A DNA stretch of 43,417 nucleotides from IMG/VR virus record IMGVR_UViG_3300006108_000026, positions 1 to 43,417 of that record, one strand, 5' to 3'. This document shows, one piece after another, positions 140 to 43,417 of the stretch (positions are counted from its first letter, which is position 1; each line of letters begins with the position of its first letter). A program made the position numbers and the translations under genes. The stretch comes from a virus. Under the pieces are notes generated by a model. It was not told where the DNA came from. It searched no databases and was given only the letters and a program-made list of their open reading frames with translations.

Positions 140-934
140 ATGTCTTCAACACAGAACCCTTTGCTTGAGGGTCTAAAGCTGCCAGGGCGGATCTTCCAGC
201 TTCCGTCTCGCGGTATTTTCTACCGCAATGGTGAGCTTGAGGACTCCATTCGCGAGGGTGAAGTTCACGTCCACCCAATGTCCGCGTTGGACGAGATCAA
301 CATGAAGAACCCAGACCAACTCTTCAGCGGCGCTGCGGTCAACACGGTGTTTCGCCGCTGCGTTCCTGGTGTTCTTAAGCCAGCCGAGCTTTTGTCCAAA
401 GACGTAGACGCGATCATGCTGTTCCTCAGAACGGTAACCTACGGTCCTTCCTACGAGTTCATCGCGAAGCACAACTGCGCTGACGGCAAGGGCAGAGACC
501 TAACCTACATAACCGACATTGACACCATGATCAATGCTATGAAGCTCATTGATCCAACCACGGTCGAGAACCTCTATACGCTTACGCTGCCAAACAATCA
601 GGTTGTGAAGCTTCGTCCTAACAAGTACCAGCAGGTTCTAGACTTGATCAGGATGAATGAGAACAAGGCTGAGATCACCGCAGAAGACCAGCAGAACAAC
701 CTCATGATGATGCTGACGGGAGTCATTGAGAGCGTTAATGACATCAACGATCCGGCAATGATCTCTGAATGGATCAAGGTTCTTCCGTCACCGATGGTCA
801 ATCGCATCGCTGAGAAGATTGAAAACATCAATGACTGGGGTTCTACACTTCAAACTACGTGCAAGTGCAAGGACTGTGGTGAAGAGTTCTCGGTTGAGAT
901 TCCAATCAACCCAGTGTCTTTTTTCACCGAGTAA
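140..934 (+). CDS. gp26-like baseplate hub/assembly protein
   Basis: A 264-residue protein resembling the T4 base-plate family typified by gp26 (Pfam T4_baseplate). The N-terminal third contains a typical SRGIFY stretch, and the C-terminus carries a probable zinc knuckle, CKCKDCGEEF, near residue 242. In T4 this family takes part in assembling the central baseplate hub. AGGAG sits 7-8 bases before the ATG, and a late promoter lies 55 bases upstream. The last codons read TCT TTT TTC and form a TTTTTTC slippery heptamer immediately before tandem stops (TAATAA). Some ribosomes may therefore shift -1 and add 76 residues from the next frame, giving a 338-residue product. The family call is by eye. 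Confidence 0.65.
   Translation: MSSTQNPLLEGLKLPGRIFQLPSRGIFYRNGELEDSIREGEVHVHPMSALDEINMKNPDQLFSGAAVNTVFRRCVPGVLKPAELLSKDVDAIMLFLRTVTYGPSYEFIAKHNCADGKGRDLTYITDIDTMINAMKLIDPTTVENLYTLTLPNNQVVKLRPNKYQQVLDLIRMNENKAEITAEDQQNNLMMMLTGVIESVNDINDPAMISEWIKVLPSPMVNRIAEKIENINDWGSTLQTTCKCKDCGEEFSVEIPINPVSFFTE
919..925 (+). promoter_or_regulatory. Probable -1 programmed ribosomal frameshift site TTTTTTC
   Basis: The heptamer lies in the phase T|TTT|TTC relative to the upstream gene, the X_XXY_YYZ form used for -1 slippage. The zero-frame stop TAA is two codons later (932-934). After a -1 shift at 925 the new frame (CAC CGA GTA ATA ...) is open straight into the frame of the 949 gene and ends at 1155. A GC-rich hairpin (GAGCCG 953-958 with CGGCTC 964-969, 5-base loop) lies 27 bases downstream, further than the usual 5-9 bases, so its role as stimulator is doubtful. 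Confidence 0.6.
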
Positions 935-948
935 TAAGCGCTGGTGAT

Positions 949-1155
949 ATGGGAGCCGTCCAGCGGCTCATCCTTCGACTTGGCTCTGAGATTAGATCGA
1001 TCGTCAAGTCGTCTTTGGAAATATCTTACTTCTCGAGAGGCGCTTGGGGTTACGAACAGGTGCTTCACATGACCCAAGCAGAACGAGAAATGGCGGTCGA
1101 GTTTATCAACGAGCGCCTCAAGATTGCTTCAAAGTCCATGTATCCGGTGTTTTAA
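949..1155 (+). CDS. Short partner frame of gp26-like gene; likely frameshift extension
   Basis: From its own ATG this would be a 68-residue protein; read from the slippery site at 925 it adds 76 residues to the upstream protein. The segment has a helical, charged character (MTQAEREMAVEFINERLK) typical of the short C-terminal part of tail or hub assembly chaperones; in T4 the neighbouring hub-assembly factor is gp51. The ATG at 949 has no convincing ribosome binding site and is in the -1 frame of the upstream gene. Both facts favour expression mainly as a fusion. The alternative is an independent small gene translated by coupling. The frame ends about 30 bases before a strong terminator. Confidence 0.6.
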   Translation: MGAVQRLILRLGSEIRSIVKSSLEISYFSRGAWGYEQVLHMTQAEREMAVEFINERLKIASKSMYPVF

Positions 1156-25900: not shown

Positions 25901-28468
25901 AAGCTTTCCCCAGTGAAACTGTTTGACTATTCGACCGACACTCTCGATCTGCAAATCGGCCTGTGGCACCCAGCAATCGGCATCCACACCTACGCTCCTC
26001 TTGAGCTGGTAAACATGCAGACGCCTGTTGATCCAGCCCACTACAACTACACGACGCTGACGACCAACAATCCTAACTACATGGCCCTCAAGCCATGGGA
26101 CGACCGTGAAGTCGGCAGAGTTTGGTGGGACACCTCCACGCTCTCCTACATCCCATACTACGACGCTACGATCTTCCCTAACCGTGAAACTCGTAACTCT
26201 CGTTGGGGCTCCCTGGCCGAGCACGCGTCAGTTGATCTGTACCAGTGGACCGAGTCTGACTACCACCCATCAGAGTACGATGCCCAGGCAATCCTCCAGG
26301 AAGGTGACTCGTCGATCGATGCGTCAGTCCGTCTGTCGGGTAGAGTCGGCTTCAAGAACTACTACAAGGCGATCCGCGACGTAACGATCCAGCCAATCGC
26401 ATGGTCCCAGACAAGCTCTTCGAATGGTCTTGCTCACCCAGCGTTTGGTCCTGCGTCTGACGTCGTCATGTACAACTCGAACAACCAGCTCATCGCCAGC
26501 AAGGGTCGCCTAGCAGCGATCAACGTCGTCAGTGGCTACAACTTCAGCGCATGGAACATCCTGAGCAGCGTGCCTGTGGGTGAGGTTACCATTGGCACTA
26601 ATGTATCCTATGACATTGGCAGTTCAGCAGGACCTGGGACTCCCTCTCTGATCCCAGCGACTATCTCTAGTGGAACGATCAGCGCGATCTCCATGAGCGC
26701 GATCTCCAACAGCAGCATCTTCGGCACTCGCATTGGTCAGATGACAATCTCGACCTACAGCACCACGACAGATTATTACCTCCGCCTGATGGATGACACC
26801 GGCTTCTTCCAAGACGTTGTCCTGTCAGATTGGTCATCAAGCAACCTGACTTCTGGTGGCGAGACCATGTCGCTGGTGTTCGACCAGTTCGGTCTCCAAG
26901 TCAATGTTACAGCCACTTCCTCTGGCACGATCACCGCTGCTGATCTGGGCATCGCTCTTTCTAGCCCAGACAATGACGTCTTCATCCGCGAAGCAGTCAA
27001 CTACAGCGAGATCATCCCACTGCCGGATGTCATCTTCAGCAATGAGAGCGTCTTCGGTATCACGGACAATGTCGAATACGGTTGGAAGGTCTGGGTTGTT
27101 CCAACTCAAGCGCAGCTTTCTGCAGACCTGCCATACCCTTACAACAAGTGGCAGCCATATCTTGGTACTCCAACAGCAGTCACTGTTACGGCAGATGTTG
27201 TTGCAGCTATGTCGTCTTCTACAAACACGCTGACTCTCGTAAGTGGCATCAACATCCAGCGCTATACCTCGACATGGTCTCCATGGCAGCAGCTCGTGAA
27301 GACAGAGATGAAGCTTATCTCCGATGGCGTAACTCCTGCGTCCTTTACGCTTGCTAATGAAACTTCTATCGACACCAACCGTCTTTCGATCTACGCTAAC
27401 GGCATTCAAATCGCTCCTGCCCAGATTACGATTACGGGCAATGTCGCAACGGTAGTAAATATTGCACCAGAAGGAACTCTTGTTTACCTGCTGTACCGTC
27501 CATACCAGCCAACGGCTACTGAGCTTTCGTTCGACCCAACCGTCAGCGACAACTTCCAGAACCAAGTTTGGTACAAGGCAGACTACCAATACACCCAACT
27601 GTCCGTTCGCGACAGCTCAGGCAATGTGTCGGGAACGAAGTACTATTTCTGGGTAACTGGTAAGACGGTTGCACAACCAAATCAATCGATGTCTCTGGCT
27701 CAAGCAGCGGAGATGCTTCAATACGGCGACTCGACCTACATGATCTTCTCGCGACTCGTATCAGATGCTTCAGCAAAGAGCGGAGCCGGGTTTGATGCGT
27801 GTGCAATCTCTGGTCTTGGCACTACCGTAACGAAGAACGATTCCTACAAGCTTCGCTTCCTCCGTGACTTTACTCTGCGCGATGATCCAGAAGAACTGAA
27901 GCTGAAGAACGTCCACACTGAATGGACTCTTATTCGTCAGCATCAGTCATCGAAGATCCCATCGACGCTGTGGCTCGCTCTCACCAATGCAATCTGTGGA
28001 CAAGATGCTGCTGGTAACCCGCTGCCATCCCAGACCCGCATTAACTACGACAGCAAGTACAACACGTTCACACGCTTCGGGTTCGGTACGGGTCAAATCT
28101 TTGTTGACAGCTCTCTGGCACTAACCTCGCTGCTCAACACGGTGCTCAACACGTCCCTCACCATTGAGATTGGGACCACCTCGATCACCGACTACATCAC
28201 GATGCTCAACATCGATTCTAGCACGACCGCAGAATCGCTGCAGGCAACTTGGTTCTCCGATCCAACGACCTCGCGCAACACGATGAACCAAATCTACTCA
28301 AACGCTCGTGCCTCGCAAGTGAATGAGATTTTCTTCAGCATCCTCAACGATGCACTCGCAAACAACTACGAGTTTACGGATTTGTTCAAGACCTCTTTGA
28401 TCACGGTCAACTCTTCTACTGTCGTCGAACAGCAAGTGCAGACGGAGCAGATCGATGACCAATACTAA
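19907..28468 (+). CDS. Giant baseplate wedge protein at the gp7 position
   Basis: A 2853-residue protein, nearly three times T4 gp7 (1032). It is assigned as gp7-like mainly because it follows gp25 and gp6. The N-terminus (NKLIPGYMQNETLTSLVNN, then FNYSPPINYDKFINYANYYW) is of the type found at the start of large wedge or tail proteins in many T4-like phages. Most of the chain is threonine/serine-rich beta sequence with repeated short linkers, suggesting a string of small beta domains. A domain around 300-390 has an IKIGDRILVKDQ / NGIYVV strand pattern. No signal or membrane segment. The C-terminus is helical and overlaps the next gene by 14 bases. The gp7 identity is inference; it might combine gp7 with fibre-attachment domains. 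Confidence 0.55.
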   Translation: MAQNLDFNKLIPGYMQNETLTSLVNNLFNRFVSQESSISVSGTVGVPVSGTAEITQPTLERQENALIPGLYFKSGTQEYLYTFEDMLNKMSTLDIDVTNLRTWIAEQTFNYSPPINYDKFINYANYYWIGSVLPNNSGPAWNTSNSPEYYVIQQPLSTSLTKMPVRLATTRDVSRWVNDRPTEVFTLTFTSSTTFTIDSSLSPGQVYTDISTIPSAQNAVTKIVVRAHDSATYPGLSAPSLADYDLCEFYIVNGSTPFAAGDQIEITLTYFTSDIFISVISPNLIGKGTVNGVSTLSPFMYIDGIQVKIGDRILVKDQVDTTLNGIYVVTEGGVWSRSYDATYDDQFNVGMKVYVEEGATQTGYTYELTFKGNLNLPGPGVPIDSNLTFTLYSTTDPSTINDWQKYNYWVHKDDLWQFSALGVTLNNTTQAQRPIIEYLGTIQLNGYVDSVTGEPCDGSSSTASPLYQAKTRFNQIPQFDLYRYDGTHAGMTSGIWFYSESPQYVTDNILLRRVETTVNGDYVFSSGIKDEAGRLLYWKNEGVLNSIWRPGVQTAYPTLPIFTGSSNHRQGDLHFPSVNPVADVQDWTVTLINPTTANITGTRSGFVGTATVDVRTSFDDFDIRIASRSIPYVAGDTFTFHMWAPASPRYVKELADGSIVNYPGGYAADQAAATQTGTWLTPLRMFENLNRESRTTISFPDFMNHARSVIKNQAQFTGASFGNNNVRTLNFFTGAGGKIREFESNFPLLASMLIEQDLSPITIIDFAEQQYNIALASIDQFLINELAGYLAAGNTVQTTTINPNAQDIIKLGNYFQALRAQNTNLAAVFGDTISAVKNWPATLPMIGLVSRVTPSITIDPELNIPVIVHHDGHISPLATEDATFNRNLTQTVVTRSDGTKSAGVFYETLPANFRPYAQQLWMVPSTSAVNIFSVTYDTEEAPATGLAGQYWYQRSTNTLRAWDAGILSWIPAPVSVASRWIPFAAENVRNSLVLSIEQQLYDSVHPAQQLNIDLLHSDAVTNAAYNELELARFAAKYNYDTYAPDYSASNPFTWNYSQATMPDVPGTPGIARWFDLYKSYFTTYGAPDLDRPDLYPWRLGTAAFGASYDKPAGWDAAYAGTTRPWSDQMWADIQAFHPTIKLCVDIHTDTLLPPYVAASDPNAIRALTNTIPPGISAGYSYGQNGPVELVWEKSLEYLYGLARTYFRLYPLAFLDKSWGETYIQSDGNLRVERNLQASLPASKFLMHGERLNLVNSYTPAEAKDRFLNLGGVTWTPTFSGTVSFTVTHCANTGDVGMLGPMGPSSTVFGVYVNGELVTRVFEGVAFSFYSPQGVNFANVTIEDHGIPFEIGDTLTMTFEADTITTELPTTGLDFMYGLLGCEGCVADATPDPSLVITDTPHLPTYSFTAGQTKVLKGTGQWFTNLLRYSYIDTDYSTASLAYRGWAVNLVHRLGALVRPDTLTITTNSGTIPTTGYSVMLKRSMNTQSLWISGIRVQLVQMGAKVLEPSGLYIPASDGSDWIFRVEVYNPSHPVAEYRVLDTAGDYTDFTALGGTHSKISWKRYSNYTSTTTSTMPLQITGIQNVLNFLYGYVDYLEGQGFKANSSDVPLTDAATGRNVDWQLEIEKFIDTVYAGMQAGAGVIVNPFMSKLYLQTPTGLMGRYTDSKFLDAYSSQAAYDITGSAISPRNLSVIRTDAQTVTYSKTPIFSAHVFVDEFEHAIIMNNRFSDDPTSSVIFDEFLGSYTQTAYLTYTRQADINNKPTFDGFFLNGNDVTRNIASTIDSLQHTYDAGSTFNEPKMAQHALSLIGFKSKDYFNTLNISPSVQLDFWRGMISAKGTNLAIDAFTNYKAFSNSSVDEFWAYKLASYGDAGERTFPEIKIQPNDCSRQFTSLQFYTKTDPTYTALPLFIQVEANDDTRWFSIDDLGTVLRFDADAVSEMVNVTEAGYVQLSNIYHNGDTMGPSISPSTGARMVNANTIYVTTPGTYTISGYTWNNQAKLSPVKLFDYSTDTLDLQIGLWHPAIGIHTYAPLELVNMQTPVDPAHYNYTTLTTNNPNYMALKPWDDREVGRVWWDTSTLSYIPYYDATIFPNRETRNSRWGSLAEHASVDLYQWTESDYHPSEYDAQAILQEGDSSIDASVRLSGRVGFKNYYKAIRDVTIQPIAWSQTSSSNGLAHPAFGPASDVVMYNSNNQLIASKGRLAAINVVSGYNFSAWNILSSVPVGEVTIGTNVSYDIGSSAGPGTPSLIPATISSGTISAISMSAISNSSIFGTRIGQMTISTYSTTTDYYLRLMDDTGFFQDVVLSDWSSSNLTSGGETMSLVFDQFGLQVNVTATSSGTITAADLGIALSSPDNDVFIREAVNYSEIIPLPDVIFSNESVFGITDNVEYGWKVWVVPTQAQLSADLPYPYNKWQPYLGTPTAVTVTADVVAAMSSSTNTLTLVSGINIQRYTSTWSPWQQLVKTEMKLISDGVTPASFTLANETSIDTNRLSIYANGIQIAPAQITITGNVATVVNIAPEGTLVYLLYRPYQPTATELSFDPTVSDNFQNQVWYKADYQYTQLSVRDSSGNVSGTKYYFWVTGKTVAQPNQSMSLAQAAEMLQYGDSTYMIFSRLVSDASAKSGAGFDACAISGLGTTVTKNDSYKLRFLRDFTLRDDPEELKLKNVHTEWTLIRQHQSSKIPSTLWLALTNAICGQDAAGNPLPSQTRINYDSKYNTFTRFGFGTGQIFVDSSLALTSLLNTVLNTSLTIEIGTTSITDYITMLNIDSSTTAESLQATWFSDPTTSRNTMNQIYSNARASQVNEIFFSILNDALANNYEFTDLFKTSLITVNSSTVVEQQVQTEQIDDQY

Positions 28469-31400
28469 CAACAGCGTTGCTGTTCAGACGAGTACGTATC
28501 TAGAAAGTCTCGTCAACTACGTTCTTGATGTCAAGCCTTTCAGAACGAAGCTTGCTGTTAGCGGTGCTGTGTCTGAGCAGTATCTGTTCTCTGACAACCT
28601 CAACGTAAAGCTTACCGAGAAAGAAAGCCTGAAGGCTTTTCTTGGTGCTGATCTTCTTCCATCTTCCTTCACCGCGCTTGGTGTTCGCACCCGTGAGACG
28701 AACAGCTGGTACCAAGAGATCATCTCTGATGGCGTTCGTGTTAACTGGCCGATGCCAAACATCACGATCCCGAAGTTCTCAAGTTCTGCCCGACTTGAGA
28801 ACTTCACCATCGGCACCAATGACTACCAGGGTATTCCTGGTCTTATCTCTGGAGTGGTTGACCCAAAGCGTTGGGACGGTCCAGGCATTACCGACGTTCG
28901 AGTCAATGGCACCCATCAGCAAGATACGGTAGACTACTTCCTCAGCCACGGCGTGTTCTCATTCGACACCGTCGGTGTGCAGAATGGTGTTCCTTCTTGG
29001 ATCCAGCATGACCTCAACATGGCAGTCCCAACGATCGAAGCGATCGAAGGTGCCATGGTGACTGGTGAGATGCTGCCACTTCCACCACCATACTCTGAAA
29101 GCATCCCTGCTTCCACTCTTGCTGCATACGCAGCATTCAGTTCCCAGCCTGGTGATCTTTCCTATGCAGAGATTCAGCGCACTGGAGGAACGATCACTGC
29201 AATCACTGGTGAGACCTACGAAGAGTTCTATCTCAAGTGCACGAGCCTTTCACCAGCAACGCTTTCAGTATACGCGAACGGTGATCACTCGACGGTTCTC
29301 GGTACGGTAACCCTTGGCAATACGTTTACTCTTGTAGACCCAGTAACGACCAAGACCCGCATTCAGTTTACCTACACCTATGAAGTAGGCCAGACAGTTG
29401 AGACAGCAACTCTTGACGATGAGTATCTAATAACTCCAGAAAACAAGATCGTTGTTAGCCCAACCGCTCCACTGGAAACTTGGTCGCTCATCAAGTCAAA
29501 TCCAATCGGTCTTGCCTCTAAGCCGCAGTGGTTCCCAAATCCTACCTACACTCGCACTGCCGTTCCTGGCCTTGAGATTCATACTCGCTCAGTAGAATAC
29601 ACCCACGCATCTTCGTGGACGCTGACGTTCAACGGCGATGGCACCTACGTTCTGAACTCGACGCTAGCCGGATATCCGGTTACCGTAAGTCTAATCGATG
29701 GCTGTTCGTACCGCGATGACAATATTGCGTTCACGGTCATTCCAACCATAGATGGATGGAAGTCTGGCGATACCTTCAGCTGGGAGATTGCTGCACGCAA
29801 GGCGTCCTATAAGGTTTATGGCTCTGTTTCCGGCTGGCAGCCAGATGCCAGTGTCGGTTACTGGTACTGGAATGGTAAGATCGGCTTCAAGATTCCAGCT
29901 CTTGACATGTTTGCCGAGGTCTACAACTCTACGATCTCTTCCTCCACGTCCGGTAACATTCAGACGTGGAACACCAACGTAAGTGGGTTCCAGATTCTCA
30001 ACAGCGTCTCCTACAGCAATGGAGCATTCTTCGTTGCTGGCGTAGACTCAATCATCGGTGCGTCTGCAGACGGCGTCACCTGGACCAGTGACATCTCATC
30101 GCTGTTCCACCCAGCATCTGGATCACATGAACTTCTCATCGTCACCGGTGCGGGCGGTCTTATCGTTGTTTCAGCGGATGGCATCAACTGGCACCAGGAA
30201 AGATCGAACGTTACTGCAGACCTCCACGCGTCTGCGAACATCCCCAACTTCCTTGCGTCTGCAAGCTCGACAACGAATGACCTCAACTGCATCATCGTTG
30301 TTGGTGACAATGGAACTATTCTAACATCTATCGATGGGGCTGGTTGGGCTGTTCAAAACAGCGGGACGACTGAGAACCTAAACGACATCACGTGGTCAGA
30401 CGATGGCATCATCGTTGTTGGTGACAATGGAACCATTCTCAAGTCACTTGATCGTCTTACTTGGACGCCACTTACGTCCAACACTACCGCCAACCTTGAG
30501 TCCGTCATCTACGTTCCGCCTACGGCAATGTATACCCAAGGCGTCTTTACCGCTGTAGGAACTCAGGGTACGATCGTTCGTTCGACCGATGGTGGCACGA
30601 CTTGGAGCAACCTTGCTCAGTTCACCGACGGTACGTTCACGTCCATCGCGTACGGCGACGGTCAATACATTGCTGTGGGTCCAACTGGACACGTTGCGCA
30701 GTCAACAAATGGCGTTGTTTGGACCCGCTACTCTGGAAAGATTTACAACAGCGTCGCGTTCGGGAATGGAACCTTCGTCGCGGTTGGTGGCTCAAAGAAC
30801 TCCACGCCACAGTTCATTCCACTTAGCCCTGTATCCTCGATGGCAGTTCCATCGACTTACACGATCACGTTTACTTCCCCATCAAATGCTGCCCTTGGTG
30901 TTAAGGGTGAAGCAACCGTCTATCACAACATTGACGGCTTCAAGGCTAACCTAAAGTCAGACACTCCTTGGTCAGATGACGTCATCTCGTTCCAGTTGAA
31001 CACCATTCCTGGAACCTATGACTACTCTATCGGTGATGTGGTCAATGTCTATCTGTCTCCTGACTACCCTGGCAATATTACTCCGCCAGAACCAGGGCAA
31101 GACACGATTGACCTGCACATTCCATATCTCTACAACAACGAGCTCTTCCCGCTCTACCACAGCTATGGCGCTGTCATCTTCCCTAGCGTTGCTTCTGGCG
31201 ACAAGATCGTAGTCGACAAGGCAAACTACGACAAGATCAAGTTCAAGATTACCGGTGCGGGTAGTGCCTACCCAGAACTGGCAGCTCAAAATGATTGGCT
31301 GCCGCTGTTCTTCAAGTACTCCGACATGGTTGACTCGAGCATGAACTCGACTTCAGCAGCCGAGTTCTCTGATCTTGGCATGTTCGTTGAAGCATTCTCT

Positions 31401-32435
31401 GCTGCGACTGGTGAGCGAGTCTTCTACATTACGTCGCCGCGCTACATGAAGACGAACCGCTCGGCTGAGTCCGTGCTTACGATCGACAGCGCCTTCTTCG
31501 CGAAGTACCTGCCATTCAACACGAAGTACTCGATCGTTGTTCAGCCTGACCAAAGCTATGGTCAGACTATCCGCGTTAAGATTACAGACAACCTGAAGAT
31601 CTATGCTCGTATCCAGCTGGTTATCGCCGATCCAATCTTCATCACTATTACTGATGATGCGCCTGCTCACCTTGAGATCATCAGCGAAATCTTCTTCGGT
31701 GAAGGACCAATCACTGGCTTCTGGCGCTGGGAAGAAACAACTCCTCCTACGGTTGGACCACCAGCTCCGGGTTGGGTGCTCGTAACTCCATTCACTGATC
31801 CTACCGATCAGGCATGGTCTTACCCGTTCAACATCGCGGTTGCTGAAGGTGGTGCGGTTATCATTGACAGCTACGACATGGCGCCTTACGATGTCATCTC
31901 GTACGATGTTGATAGCACGGTACCGTTCATTCAGATCTATGAGTCTCCAACAAGTGAGGCCGGCGTAGAAGTACATTCATCGATCACCGATGGTCTCTCT
32001 ATCATGATGACTGTTGTTGGTGCGTACAACTTTGACGAATATGACGTAGCGGGATATGACACAGATGCGTATGACTTTGCTGAAGCTTCAGTTCCTCCAG
32101 AGGATGCGGGCGAAACTACTCTTAACCTCACCTTTGACTTCAATGTTCTCCAGCCAGGTGGGCCATCTACTGTCCCAGCAACAGCACCTGGACTCCTGAT
32201 CTCAGCTGCAGCAACGAACTACATCATTACTCTCGTAAATGCTCCTGGTCCATCGACGAACATCATCTACGCGCCAGAAAGCAATCACATGAACCTTGGT
32301 TCTGAACCTGCTGTCATGACCACGGGTGCATACTTGGACAGCAACGGTGATCTAATCACTGTCACGGACCCTAACTCGATTACCTTTGCTATGCCGGCTG
32401 GCATCACAGTGCCATTCAGGCTGTGGATCGTGTAA
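28455..32435 (+). CDS. Large baseplate/fibre protein with BNR-type beta-propeller
   Basis: A 1326-residue virion protein overlapping the preceding gene by 14 bases. Residues 1-60 contain VNYVLDVKPFRTKL, a motif common at the head of phage wedge or fibre proteins. Residues about 515-780 hold six BNR/YCF48-like repeats of the form GxxGTIxxSxDGxxW (for example GDNGTILTSIDGAGW, GDNGTILKSLDRLTW, GTQGTIVRSTDGGTTW), enough for a six-bladed propeller or part of a seven-bladed one; such propellers bind sugars. Two YDxxx triplets occur near residues 1140 and 1196. Position after the gp7-like gene suggests a gp8 or gp10 equivalent that holds or forms adhesion parts; that is inference. Confidence 0.6.
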   Translation: MTNTNNSVAVQTSTYLESLVNYVLDVKPFRTKLAVSGAVSEQYLFSDNLNVKLTEKESLKAFLGADLLPSSFTALGVRTRETNSWYQEIISDGVRVNWPMPNITIPKFSSSARLENFTIGTNDYQGIPGLISGVVDPKRWDGPGITDVRVNGTHQQDTVDYFLSHGVFSFDTVGVQNGVPSWIQHDLNMAVPTIEAIEGAMVTGEMLPLPPPYSESIPASTLAAYAAFSSQPGDLSYAEIQRTGGTITAITGETYEEFYLKCTSLSPATLSVYANGDHSTVLGTVTLGNTFTLVDPVTTKTRIQFTYTYEVGQTVETATLDDEYLITPENKIVVSPTAPLETWSLIKSNPIGLASKPQWFPNPTYTRTAVPGLEIHTRSVEYTHASSWTLTFNGDGTYVLNSTLAGYPVTVSLIDGCSYRDDNIAFTVIPTIDGWKSGDTFSWEIAARKASYKVYGSVSGWQPDASVGYWYWNGKIGFKIPALDMFAEVYNSTISSSTSGNIQTWNTNVSGFQILNSVSYSNGAFFVAGVDSIIGASADGVTWTSDISSLFHPASGSHELLIVTGAGGLIVVSADGINWHQERSNVTADLHASANIPNFLASASSTTNDLNCIIVVGDNGTILTSIDGAGWAVQNSGTTENLNDITWSDDGIIVVGDNGTILKSLDRLTWTPLTSNTTANLESVIYVPPTAMYTQGVFTAVGTQGTIVRSTDGGTTWSNLAQFTDGTFTSIAYGDGQYIAVGPTGHVAQSTNGVVWTRYSGKIYNSVAFGNGTFVAVGGSKNSTPQFIPLSPVSSMAVPSTYTITFTSPSNAALGVKGEATVYHNIDGFKANLKSDTPWSDDVISFQLNTIPGTYDYSIGDVVNVYLSPDYPGNITPPEPGQDTIDLHIPYLYNNELFPLYHSYGAVIFPSVASGDKIVVDKANYDKIKFKITGAGSAYPELAAQNDWLPLFFKYSDMVDSSMNSTSAAEFSDLGMFVEAFSAATGERVFYITSPRYMKTNRSAESVLTIDSAFFAKYLPFNTKYSIVVQPDQSYGQTIRVKITDNLKIYARIQLVIADPIFITITDDAPAHLEIISEIFFGEGPITGFWRWEETTPPTVGPPAPGWVLVTPFTDPTDQAWSYPFNIAVAEGGAVIIDSYDMAPYDVISYDVDSTVPFIQIYESPTSEAGVEVHSSITDGLSIMMTVVGAYNFDEYDVAGYDTDAYDFAEASVPPEDAGETTLNLTFDFNVLQPGGPSTVPATAPGLLISAAATNYIITLVNAPGPSTNIIYAPESNHMNLGSEPAVMTTGAYLDSNGDLITVTDPNSITFAMPAGITVPFRLWIV
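30289..30433 (+). repeat. 28-base direct repeat within the propeller coding region
   Basis: The same 28 bases (begin GCATCATCGTTG, end ACAATGGAAC) occur at 30289-30316 and 30406-30433. They are 117 bases apart, exactly 39 codons, one propeller blade. Neighbouring blades are less alike in DNA, so this looks like a recent blade duplication or gene conversion. Confidence 0.8.
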
Positions 32436-34627: not shown

Positions 34628-36253
34628 ATGTCCTGTGGATGCAGCATAGTTGAGAAGAGTCCTCTTTGGACTCCGGTTCCAGAGTACAGACAGCCTACCG
34701 ATATTCAACCAGGTGAGAACATCGACTGCTATATGAAGCGGGCGGGTTCTCAATCTGGTCTGAAGAACGATATTGGTCCAAAGATTCCAGACAGAATCGA
34801 CAACACCTCACTGACATCTGACCTTCACGGTGTTGTCAATGAGAAGCTGCAACTGACCCCAGGCTCTACTAGAACCGCGACTACATGGACTGCAACTGTT
34901 GACGGCACTTCTATTGGAACCGCGATCCCACATCTTGCTCTAGATGCTGCAACCGGTGCTCTTACAGGAACGGTTCAAGGCGATCACCTCAACAAAAACT
35001 ACAAGGTGCTGATAACAGCGGCTGATGGAACCGGCACGATCGACAGCCGTGAGTTCAACTTCTTTCCTAAAGATGCTGCTCACACCGACGTCATTAAGTT
35101 TGTTATCCCTCTTGCTGGAAACTCTCATGTCACGTGTGGTTTCGGTCCAAGAACTCCTCCGGCGCAAGGTGCATCATCTTTTCACCAAGGATATGACTTT
35201 GCAATGATTGATCACAGCCATGGCACGATCGTTGCAGCGGCAGACGGGGTTGTCCGCAAGACCGGTCCAGCATCTGGCTTTGGAAACTGGATCATCATCG
35301 ACCACAATGACAGCTCTGGTAAGCTGGTCTGCTCTACTGTCTACGCCCACATGAACGATGGTAACACTTTCGTCCGCGTTGGCGACAAGGTTGCGGCCGG
35401 ACAGAAGATTGCCATTGAGGGAAATGCGGGGATTGGTTCGGGTGCTCACCTTCACTTTGAGCTTCACAAGGGCGGCTACAAGAATCCAGTTGATCCAGGC
35501 CCATACCTTCACGGTGCGGTAACTGTTGCGAACAACAATGATCCAACCCAGCCGCAGCAAGATGGAACAACTGCTCCTTCCGGCGGGTTCACAACGCGAA
35601 ATAACACCGCTGTTGGAATGTCTGCCGCTGAAGCTCTGGCGGGCCATGACTGCCCAGACACCATTCCTAATCCAAGTCCAGACGGATCTGAGCCGGTTGT
35701 GGCAACTGGAAAAGCAACTCACACGTCAAGCTGCAAGCCTGCAGACTATCACGCAGACCCAGCCGGGGTCGAGCAGCAGATTCGTGCTGAATGCGCTGCA
35801 CAGGGTCTTGACAGCAGTGAGGCTGACTTTATTGTCAACGTTGCTAAGATTGAATCTGGTCTTGACCCATACGCAAAGTGCCCAACATCGTCAGCGACTG
35901 GACTGTTCCAGTTTCTGGACGCTCTCGCTATAAAGTACTATGGGAGATTGGGTGTTCCACCAACGTGCGCTAACCGCTGCAACGTCACATATGCGACCCG
36001 CGCGATGTGCGACTTCTACAAGACAGAGATGAGACCTGCGTGGAACAACTTTGTTTCATCTGGAAAGACTAGGATTGTCGGTAAGCAGATCAAGCCTACG
36101 AGCTGGTCTGGATCTTCAGCACCATACTACGCCTCCCTCACCAGGTCACAGTTCCTTTACGGGCTAATTCACCATGACGGTGTCGGGAGTGCCGTAAATG
36201 GAAAGGACCTTGGCGGGGTTCAGTACTGGCGTAAGAAGATCGGCAACGTCTAA
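34628..36253 (+). CDS. Bifunctional endolysin-type protein: Ig-like + M23 peptidase + lytic transglycosylase
   Basis: A 541-residue protein with three parts. Residues about 70-147 form an Ig-like beta domain (LALDAATGALTGTVQGDH). Residues about 155-295 are an M23 zinc endopeptidase with HQGYD (H186, D190), YAHM (H241) and HLHFE (H274, H276). Residues about 380-541 are an SLT-type transglycosylase with KIESGLDP (catalytic E409), TGLFQFLD and a Y/H-rich tail. No signal peptide is seen, so export would need a holin or the protein acts in the virion. It lies directly after the spanins, favouring a lysis role; a virion-associated cell-wall hydrolase used at infection is the alternative. It converges on the next gene with overlapping stops. 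Confidence 0.8.
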   Translation: MSCGCSIVEKSPLWTPVPEYRQPTDIQPGENIDCYMKRAGSQSGLKNDIGPKIPDRIDNTSLTSDLHGVVNEKLQLTPGSTRTATTWTATVDGTSIGTAIPHLALDAATGALTGTVQGDHLNKNYKVLITAADGTGTIDSREFNFFPKDAAHTDVIKFVIPLAGNSHVTCGFGPRTPPAQGASSFHQGYDFAMIDHSHGTIVAAADGVVRKTGPASGFGNWIIIDHNDSSGKLVCSTVYAHMNDGNTFVRVGDKVAAGQKIAIEGNAGIGSGAHLHFELHKGGYKNPVDPGPYLHGAVTVANNNDPTQPQQDGTTAPSGGFTTRNNTAVGMSAAEALAGHDCPDTIPNPSPDGSEPVVATGKATHTSSCKPADYHADPAGVEQQIRAECAAQGLDSSEADFIVNVAKIESGLDPYAKCPTSSATGLFQFLDALAIKYYGRLGVPPTCANRCNVTYATRAMCDFYKTEMRPAWNNFVSSGKTRIVGKQIKPTSWSGSSAPYYASLTRSQFLYGLIHHDGVGSAVNGKDLGGVQYWRKKIGNV

Positions 36254-40858: not shown

Positions 40859-43417
40859 TTATCCCAGTTCTTTGATGAGCTTATCGACTTCCGGAGAAGT
40901 CATTGTCTTCTTGCTAGCAGGCTGGTCCTTTTGGACTACAGCGTAACCGCCATCTTCCTCAGGGGTAAAGACGTATGTATTGCCATTGGTCGACATGACG
41001 CTCAGTGGCTTACCAGCCTTAAGAGCGGAACGAAGACTTGCTGTTTCTTTATCGCTAATCTTAATCAGCATTCCACGGGTTGAAACCTGGAAGCCAAGGC
41101 TGCCAAGATCAGCAACCATCCATCCGGCGTCAGCTTCAGAAATGATTGAGCCGATCAGTGAGAAGCTTTGGTTCTGCTGGGTTCCTGCAGTTGCTGGAGC
41201 AGCAGCATGAGCTGTGGCGGACTGAGTGGAAGCAACAGCATTTTCAAGAGCATCACGCGCGATCTTGATCTTCTGCGCGACTGCCGAGTTCTTCGCCGTC
41301 ATCATACCAGGAGTGTTCTTGGCTTGAAGGATCTTTGCTTGGTACGAGAATGAACGGTTAGCATTGACATCGAAGCCCATCGCGATGAGCATGTCACTTA
41401 CCGCCTGAACAGTTGGGTTAGAGAAGGTAGGATTGGCTGCTTCTAACACTGCCATTTCCTTCAGAAGATTACCAACCGCCTTCAGATTTTCTTCAGTGGT
41501 CTCAGCCTTCTTCTTTTTCTTCTTGATGATCTGCCCGAACTCGTCGCGCTCTTCACCGCCTTCTTCCTCTTCGCCTTCAGACTCTTCTTCGCCTTCACCT
41601 TCGGTCTCTTCACCACCTTCTTCTTCCTGACCTTCAGGAGGAGTCTCAGTGTCAACGTCAGTTTCGGTTTCTTCAGGCTCGCCTTCATCTTCGTCGTTGT
41701 AGATGGTCATGTCGATATCTGGATTTTCATCCTCAACATCTTCGCTCTCATCACCAGTAGCACCTGGCTCTTCACCAGTGTTAACACCTTCTGGCCATTC
41801 AACGTCTACGATGTCGAACTTGTCGGCTAGATCGTTAACGACGTTTTCAATGTTGTCTTCTTTGCCGAGCATATCAGCCAGAGCCTTTTCAAAGGCATCG
41901 GCCTGGGCAGCGTTGACATAGACCTTGACAACAGAACCGTCATCCATCTCCATACCAAAGACGACAGAGTCAACTTCATCGTTGATCTCATGGGCCTTGT
42001 CGAGATAGCGGTTGACGTCCATGGTCGTGACGTTGTCACCCATGTTTACGTTGTTGCGAAGCTGCTTGAACTCAACGTCGGTCTGGCCGTGAGCCGTATT
42101 GTCAACGTCAGTTGCAAACTTCATGTCCTTAAGGTGTGCCCAATCTTCGCTTATCTTGAGGAGAGAGAACTTGCTCTCAGGAACACCCATCTTAGCGCCC
42201 TTAGGCTCCATGCTTGGGATAGGGAACTTCTTAGGACGCGTGAAGTTGCGCGAGCGCTTCATCACGACCTTGTTCTTGAAGAGCTTGAATGGATATGGCG
42301 CGATGTTACCAACGCGAGTAGTGCCGGCCTTGGATGCGTCAGCCGCACCAGCGCCAGTAAATCCTGGGCCAAGAGAACCAGTCTGAGCTGGTACCGAACC
42401 GCTAGTCGCCCCGGCGCCAGTTGCCGCACCAGCGCCCGCTGCAGGAGCTCCACCAGCTGCGGCTCCACCGCCAGCAGCTGCACCATCTTCATTGATGGAC
42501 TTGATTAGATTGAATGATTCTTTCACTTCGCCTTCTTCGCCGTCAGAGACTGCTTCAATGGTCTTACCGTACAGTGCCATGACCAAGTCTGCTGCTGTTC
42601 TAGATTGAAGAACTTGGGCTCTGACTTCATTGATGTCTTTCTTGGTCTCAGCAAACGCGGTAAGAGTGCGCTTCATAACTTCAGGAGAAATACCAATCTC
42701 CTTACCGGTCTTAAGAGTGAGCTTGAACTCACCGGCTTCTTCCTTGAACTGCTGAAGGATGCCGTTGACTTCCTTCAGAGCGTTCTCAAGGATCGCAGCG
42801 ATCTTGGTTCTAGTAGAGGCTACGCTGTTGATGTTGAGGCTGTTCGCTACTGCCTGCGCGGTAGCCATTGGCTCAGACTTCTTGAACTTGCTGATAAAGC
42901 GCTTCGTTCCAGATGCCAGTGCAAGTTCCTTGGCGCCCATCAGCTCAGCGATGCGGATACGAGCTTCACCAAAGGCGCCGCCTCTCATCTCAACAGGCTT
43001 GTCTTGATCAGTCGTCCTAACCAGACCCGCGATGTTGGCGCGTACCGCAGAGTTGAAGGTGTTGATCGCAGTGAAGACGTCCTTGTCGACGATCTTCGTC
43101 TGGCTTCCAGTAACTGGGTCACGAACGACAACGCCTTCAACGCCGATGTCTTCGGACGGATGAAGGTTGTCATCTTGAAGGAATGGCTTCACCTTGCGAA
43201 CGAAGTTGTTCAGCAGCATCTCCTTGATAGGAGCCTTGTAGGTGTCCATGATGTAGGCGTTGACGCGCTCGCGTTCTGCCTTGGCCTCTGCTCTCTTGTC
43301 CTTTGAAACTTGAGTGAGGCTGAGCTCTGCAACCTGACCATTCGTTAGGTCAGGGAACTCTTTGTTCTTTTCAGCTACGAACTTCTCCATCTGACCGAGA
43401 AGGTTTGTGGCTGCCTT
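40859..43417 (-). CDS. Large modular virion-type protein, 5' end cut by window edge
   Basis: At least 852 residues; the frame is open through the right edge, so the true start is outside. From the visible N-terminus: a helical, lysine/arginine-rich region with a VKPFLQDDNL segment and a long alanine-rich helix. Next comes a glycine/alanine linker (GAAAGGGAAAGGAPAAGAG), then a basic KRSRNFTRPKKFP segment and a compact domain (NRYLDKAHEINDEVDSVVFG; VYVNAAQADAFEKALADML). A long acidic Glu/Asp/Thr stretch follows (about 550-635), then a run of six lysines, and a C-terminal domain with strands (GFQVSTRGMLIKIS). The family is unrecognised. The order suggests an internal head, scaffold or structural protein; similar modules occur as uncharacterised proteins in T4-like phages. 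Confidence 0.7.
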   Translation of the reverse strand, partial: KAATNLLGQMEKFVAEKNKEFPDLTNGQVAELSLTQVSKDKRAEAKAERERVNAYIMDTYKAPIKEMLLNNFVRKVKPFLQDDNLHPSEDIGVEGVVVRDPVTGSQTKIVDKDVFTAINTFNSAVRANIAGLVRTTDQDKPVEMRGGAFGEARIRIAELMGAKELALASGTKRFISKFKKSEPMATAQAVANSLNINSVASTRTKIAAILENALKEVNGILQQFKEEAGEFKLTLKTGKEIGISPEVMKRTLTAFAETKKDINEVRAQVLQSRTAADLVMALYGKTIEAVSDGEEGEVKESFNLIKSINEDGAAAGGGAAAGGAPAAGAGAATGAGATSGSVPAQTGSLGPGFTGAGAADASKAGTTRVGNIAPYPFKLFKNKVVMKRSRNFTRPKKFPIPSMEPKGAKMGVPESKFSLLKISEDWAHLKDMKFATDVDNTAHGQTDVEFKQLRNNVNMGDNVTTMDVNRYLDKAHEINDEVDSVVFGMEMDDGSVVKVYVNAAQADAFEKALADMLGKEDNIENVVNDLADKFDIVDVEWPEGVNTGEEPGATGDESEDVEDENPDIDMTIYNDEDEGEPEETETDVDTETPPEGQEEEGGEETEGEGEEESEGEEEEGGEERDEFGQIIKKKKKKAETTEENLKAVGNLLKEMAVLEAANPTFSNPTVQAVSDMLIAMGFDVNANRSFSYQAKILQAKNTPGMMTAKNSAVAQKIKIARDALENAVASTQSATAHAAAPATAGTQQNQSFSLIGSIISEADAGWMVADLGSLGFQVSTRGMLIKISDKETASLRSALKAGKPLSVMSTNGNTYVFTPEEDGGYAVVQKDQPASKKTMTSPEVDKLIKELG

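Follow-up and report, generated by a model that had tools for sequence, protein, structure and literature searches.

The short open reading frame that follows a gp26-like gene in a giant-phage contig raises the question of whether the two encode separate proteins or whether ribosomes enter the second by shifting frame within the first. The contig, an IMG/VR virus fragment of 43,417 bp (GC 51%) that was analysed at its full length and is referred to as the window, carries T4-type genes identified by Pfam and PHROG matches, among them SbcC- and SbcD-like proteins (gp46/gp47), a T4-type late sigma factor and baseplate wedge proteins, and its source is a giant T4-related phage. The gp26-like gene lies at the left edge, with its upstream neighbours cut off and a convergent gene downstream. 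Elsewhere in the window, a 541-aa protein encoded at 34628-36253, downstream of the baseplate genes, combines an M23 peptidase domain with a weak SLT-like region and is possibly a tail-associated or lysis endopeptidase, and two large open reading frames at 40859-43390 and 28455-32435 (843 and 1326 aa) have no Pfam and/or PHROG match. The features of the locus are listed below, with TAC denoting tail assembly chaperone.

140-934, + strand: TAC-N, putative gp26-like short tail assembly chaperone, 264 aa by standard decoding (open reading frame, PF12322, phrog_150, 18 close relatives, AlphaFold model)
919-925, + strand: predicted slippery heptamer T_TTT_TTC for -1 frameshifting (phase read directly, conserved in relatives)
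925-1155, + strand: TAC-C, -1 frame extension of 76 codons plus stop, predicted helical domain (open frame, selection on the -1-frame protein, 47-member alignment, helical model)
949-951, + strand: internal ATG in the -1 frame, not conserved as a start (relatives carry CTG, ATT, GGA or other codons at this position)
1188-1213, + strand: terminator-like hairpin AAAAAGGGAGCC-TTTC-GGCTCCCTTTTC after the -1 open reading frame (fold -18.6 kcal/mol, z -4.5)

The first reading frame extends from an ATG at 140 to a TAA at 932-934 and ends in TCT TTT TTC ACC GAG TAA, with TTTTTTC (919-925) in X_XXY_YYZ phase two codons ahead of the stop, exactly as proposed in a first-pass annotation of this DNA. The translation also confirms its claim that the -1 frame is open from the slip site through 1155: this frame, which is open from just 5' of the heptamer and reads FHRVISAGDMGAVQRLILRLGSEIRS...MYPVF* from 922, closes at 1153-1155. 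The predicted fusion TAC-NC would join 262 aa of the zero frame (140-925) to 76 aa of the -1 frame (925-1152), giving a protein of 338 aa. A scan of both strands found TTTTTTC once, with neither a second copy nor its reverse complement elsewhere in the 43,417 bp window. In light of the comparative data described below, we consider it very probable that a conserved -1 frameshift at TTTTTTC makes the long form of a chaperone, and that one gene would thus encode the two products TAC-N and TAC-NC.

For the comparison, a set of 106 homologous loci was built from 18 near relatives, 12 loci of distant phage records and subsequent wider scans, with identities of 44-76% in the clade of the window and down to about 22% in jumbo phages; RaK2 is counted twice in this set and some sequences are closely related to one another. 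The heptamer is TTTTTTC in 84, TTTTTTT in 19 and TTTCTTC in three of these loci, which amounts to T_TTT_TTY in 103 of 106, and a -1 extension of 71-81 codons is kept in all 102 loci with enough sequence. Among the 18 near relatives (44-75% identity), where one contig ends early, all complete sequences keep an open -1 frame that terminates 221 or 224 nt beyond the zero-frame stop, and the +1 frame closes at varying positions. Ten of the 12 distant loci (about 23-33% identity to the query) display an in-phase T_TTT_TTC or T_TTT_TTT followed by a -1 extension of 72-81 codons, these being from Stenotrophomonas RAS14, Xanthomonas XacN1, Agrobacterium Atu_ph07, Sinorhizobium Phosso, Pseudomonas Paride and PAC2, Salicola SCTP-2, Klebsiella RaK2, Vibrio 2.275.O and Serratia BF. 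Across loci the zero-frame stop is found 1-25 codons past the slip, with a constant -1 relation. The comparison of homologous gene pairs that the first-pass annotation had suggested thus finds both heptamer and frame conserved; slip site, frame and conserved C-domain are established at the level of sequence, and the proposed programmed -1 frameshift gains strong comparative support. The unrelated spacing, or zero or +1 frame, that had been named as contrary evidence is absent from the family except in a few distant loci of cyanophage type, where the partner is in the +1 frame. In Microcystis phage Mel-JY01 (L026, 2737-2973) and Synechococcus phage S-SCSM1 (L174, about 1880-2074), the partner domain is located in the +1 (or -2) frame. 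S-CAM8 (L173) shows the -1 form with T_TTT_TTC and an extension without an annotated gene.

Constraint is also manifested at the codon level. The codon preceding Phe-Phe has T as its third base in each of the 60 loci of the first set that were informative, although the encoded residue may be S, T, A, N, H, D, R, Y or V. Under each gene's own codon usage this bias corresponds to a log10 P of about -28, a figure that is inflated by the relatedness of the sequences, although the effect is still plain. The first Phe is encoded by TTT in 57 of 60 loci compared to 30 expected. Within the extension, 29 gapless sequences show variabilities of 0.33, 0.24 and 0.61 at codon positions 1, 2 and 3 and no stops in the -1 frame, against about five in each of the other frames. 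The alignment indicates that the extension evolves as a selected protein in the -1 frame only. The corresponding TAC-C domain, represented by an alignment of 47 members, is predicted to be helical (pLDDT 89).

Among the alternatives, termination-reinitiation, where just-terminated ribosomes would produce a second, separate protein from an ATGA overlap or from ATG 949, appears improbable. In its favour, several phages have the second open reading frame annotated as a gene of its own, and many phages of the window's clade carry an ATGA stop/start overlap and, ten codons inside the -1 reading frame, an ATG in phase with it; this overlap, which we count against the frameshift, would also permit separate translation of the C-domain, and some of it may be made in such phages. 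In the window itself, GAGTAATA provides an overlap without ATG, and the codon at the position of 949 is not conserved. The sequence preceding this ATG, ...GCGCTGGTGAT-ATG, contains no AGGAG-type Shine-Dalgarno motif, and the first-pass statement that it lacks a good ribosome binding site holds in this respect but not absolutely, since GGTGAT could pair with an extended anti-Shine-Dalgarno sequence, albeit at poor spacing. Within 60 nt after the slip, the -1 frame is devoid of ATG in 43 of 106 loci and of ATG, GTG and TTG in 22, and in the latter reinitiation can therefore not yield the same product. Reinitiation would furthermore leave the conservation of T_TTT_TTY unexplained and offers no reason for a -1 frame that is open 5' of the stop in cases where this stop is 25 codons away. 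We thus favour frameshifting over two genes because of the bias for T-ending codons, the stop at 1-25 codons with the -1 relation kept, and the loci without a start.

Even less probable is transcriptional slippage, in which RNA polymerase would add or drop a U in the T run, such that part of the mRNA would encode the fusion in one frame. A run of six or seven T is present in almost all loci, but this process generally requires longer runs of about 8-9, the run is interrupted in the T_TTC_TTC members, and its position relative to the codons is invariant, which is not needed for slippage. A sequencing or assembly error, by which a T lost or gained in an error-prone homopolymer would split one continuous gene, is refuted by the locus comparison, which finds the same frame break in about 100 contigs originating from many different projects as well as in complete genomes of isolates, with variable stop codons and positions and also in TTTCTTC loci.

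What counts against the frameshift itself are the three loci with T_TTC_TTC and one with T_TTT_TCC, where tandem slippage pairs poorly. The T_TTT_TCC locus (L104) was set aside from the count of 106, and its -1 domain still matches the family. T_TTC_TTC sites with an intact -1 extension are found at L006 3770-3776, L016 3785-3791 and L019 3785-3791. Since tandem slippage at such sites would lead to mispairing in the A site, P-site slippage alone or another mechanism could operate there.

In a search for RNA signals, no downstream stimulator was identified, a result that also weighs against the frameshift, as the region 3' of the slip shows no unusual stability and the 18 relatives contain no covarying helix. 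On the 5' side, a hairpin at 892-911 (GGTTGA-N8-TCAACC) ends 7 nt before the slip and is a possible upstream modulator; its pairs are mostly kept in relatives, with a conservation hardly above that of shuffles and no covariation beyond the coding constraint on the same bases. The hairpin at 1188-1213, which sits between the -1 open reading frame and the convergent gene at 1235-2521, resembles a strong intrinsic terminator, and due to its location right 3' of this frame, transcription plausibly stops there, ending the unit.

The nature of the two products is suggested by their relationship to T4 proteins. The 264-aa protein, which contains a Cys motif, matches the T4_baseplate family PF12322 (E 3e-8, 34 bits compared to a family cut-off of 24.5) and the baseplate hub family phrog_150 (E 4e-11). 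Its AlphaFold model (pLDDT 85.5) matches T4-like baseplate hub assembly proteins in BFVD with E-values down to 2e-19. The -1 domain has no annotated function in Pfam and PHROGs, where 4 of its 26 members match solely the unnamed phrog_18291, and neither a PDB sequence search with both domains nor a PDB fold search with the -1 domain gave a meaningful match.

T4 gp26 (208 aa) and gp51 (249 aa) both match PF12322 and are paralogous proteins encoded by divergently transcribed genes, with gp51 containing an extra C-terminus compared to gp26. In cyanophages and other T4-like phages, a short downstream partner is annotated as 'hub assembly catalyst' in some cases and missing in others. Profile comparisons relate this partner to the C-terminus of gp51 (probability 94%, E 1e-7) and the jumbo-phage -1 domain to the cyanophage and T4-like partners (probability 70%, E 4e-5). 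When compared directly, the similarity between the -1 domain and gp51 is only suggestive, an HMM of the -1 domain gave no significant match to T4 gp51, and a profile comparison of the jumbo-phage N-domain with gp51 aligned only the Cys-rich stretch, weakly. Because the partner connects the -1 domain to the gp51 C-terminus through such intermediates, the profiles identify gp26 as the probable counterpart of the unshifted and gp51 as that of the shifted product. The idea of the first-pass annotation that hub chaperones of the gp26/gp51 type and frameshifted tail chaperones are of one kind is thus supported, and the best reading of TAC-N and TAC-NC is that of a short and a long tail assembly chaperone. 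In Mel-JY01 and cyanophages, the genes are ordered tube - gp26-like - partner - large gene, in agreement with a module of tube, chaperone and tape measure, and the divergent neighbour in RaK2 carries an annotation of similarity to a tape-measure protein; against the chaperone reading we count that the gene is not clearly adjacent to a tape-measure gene in the window and in jumbo phages.

From these features we infer a frameshift product, a ratio of TAC-N to TAC-NC and interactions with tape measure and tube as follows. The majority of ribosomes would translate 140-934 to produce the short chaperone TAC-N, whereas a minority would slip back by one base on U_UUU_UUC, with the two Phe tRNAs re-pairing with UUU. 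The slipped ribosomes would bypass the UAA codon (932) and translate the -1 frame as far as 1155, adding the 76-residue helical domain to yield TAC-NC of 338 aa. By analogy with lambda gpG, many copies of TAC-N may coat the tape-measure or hub protein, and the C-domain of few copies of TAC-NC may, like that of gpGT, recruit tube or hub subunits. As in the case of gpG/gpGT, both forms would be absent from the finished virion.

The tail assembly chaperones of T4-like phages were reportedly assigned by Vladimirov, Gautam and Davidson in 2022 (in Virology 566:9-15), whose abstract is said to describe frameshifting as conserved in several T4-like groups and T4 as using genes 26 and 51. Both proteins were listed as hub assembly chaperones already in a 2010 review (PMC3004832). 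According to the passages of later papers that refer to the 2022 work, some T4-like phages contain a short gene accompanied by a longer fusion gene in place of frameshifting (PMC10885494), and TAC-N genes of T4-like phages carry polyT -1 slippery signals (PMC12846349). The first-pass annotation did not know frameshifting as a described feature of gp26/gp51-type genes; in view of this assignment and the cited polyT sites, an undescribed status is not supported. Our literature search found nothing relevant that would link jumbo phages to this frameshift. The locus is thus a well-supported, unannotated case of a known frameshifted-chaperone logic and a possible extension of the T4-like frameshift to jumbo phages. 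It corrects how this gene is annotated in a large number of jumbo phages; in RaK2, Paride and S-CAM8 no gene is called on the second half, and in other phages it appears as a separate 'hypothetical' gene. The comparison of about 100 loci agrees with the proposed role of T4 gp26 and gp51, traditionally described as baseplate hub proteins, as tail assembly chaperones. As a tentative possibility, the single-gene arrangement with a frameshift, in which T_TTT_TTY marks the Phe-Phe end of the PF12322 protein, might be ancestral in the T4 superfamily and span jumbo phages beyond the 2022 work, with T4 genes 26 and 51 as a derived split in which duplication replaced the frameshift. The set of loci allows one to ask when the T4 lineage made this exchange.

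Among known systems, the HK97 tail assembly chaperone 2OB9 is the PDB fold match of highest probability for the TAC-N model (0.47, E 1.3-1.9), with a TM-score over the target of 0.49-0.55; this match is partial, covering about 90-95 alignment columns of the 264-residue query, is not significant alone, and points weakly to the family expected for TAC-N. Compared to the lambda gpG/gpGT and Mu/P2-type chaperones (Xu, Hendrix and Duda, 2004, as summarised in a passage of PMC5009743), the window proteins show no detectable sequence similarity, TAC-N exceeds them in size with its 264 aa and contains a Cys motif, and the slippery heptamer T_TTT_TTC is unlike the GGGAAAG of lambda. The Vandenendeviridae locus of phage Adele (PMC12846349) belongs to another virus family and has the motif GTTTTT; it provides a comparative case for a -1 shift at polyT with a stop-free -1 frame, whose open reading frame was likewise misannotated as a hypothetical gene. 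T4 itself employs two divergent genes where the window phage has one frameshifted gene, and its sequence identity to the window protein is below direct detection. The chaperones of T4-like phages nevertheless belong to the same PF12322 family, with an N-domain shared by short and long forms, a C-domain related to the gp51 C-terminus and, as reported in the cited passages for some T4-like groups, a polyT -1 slippery site.
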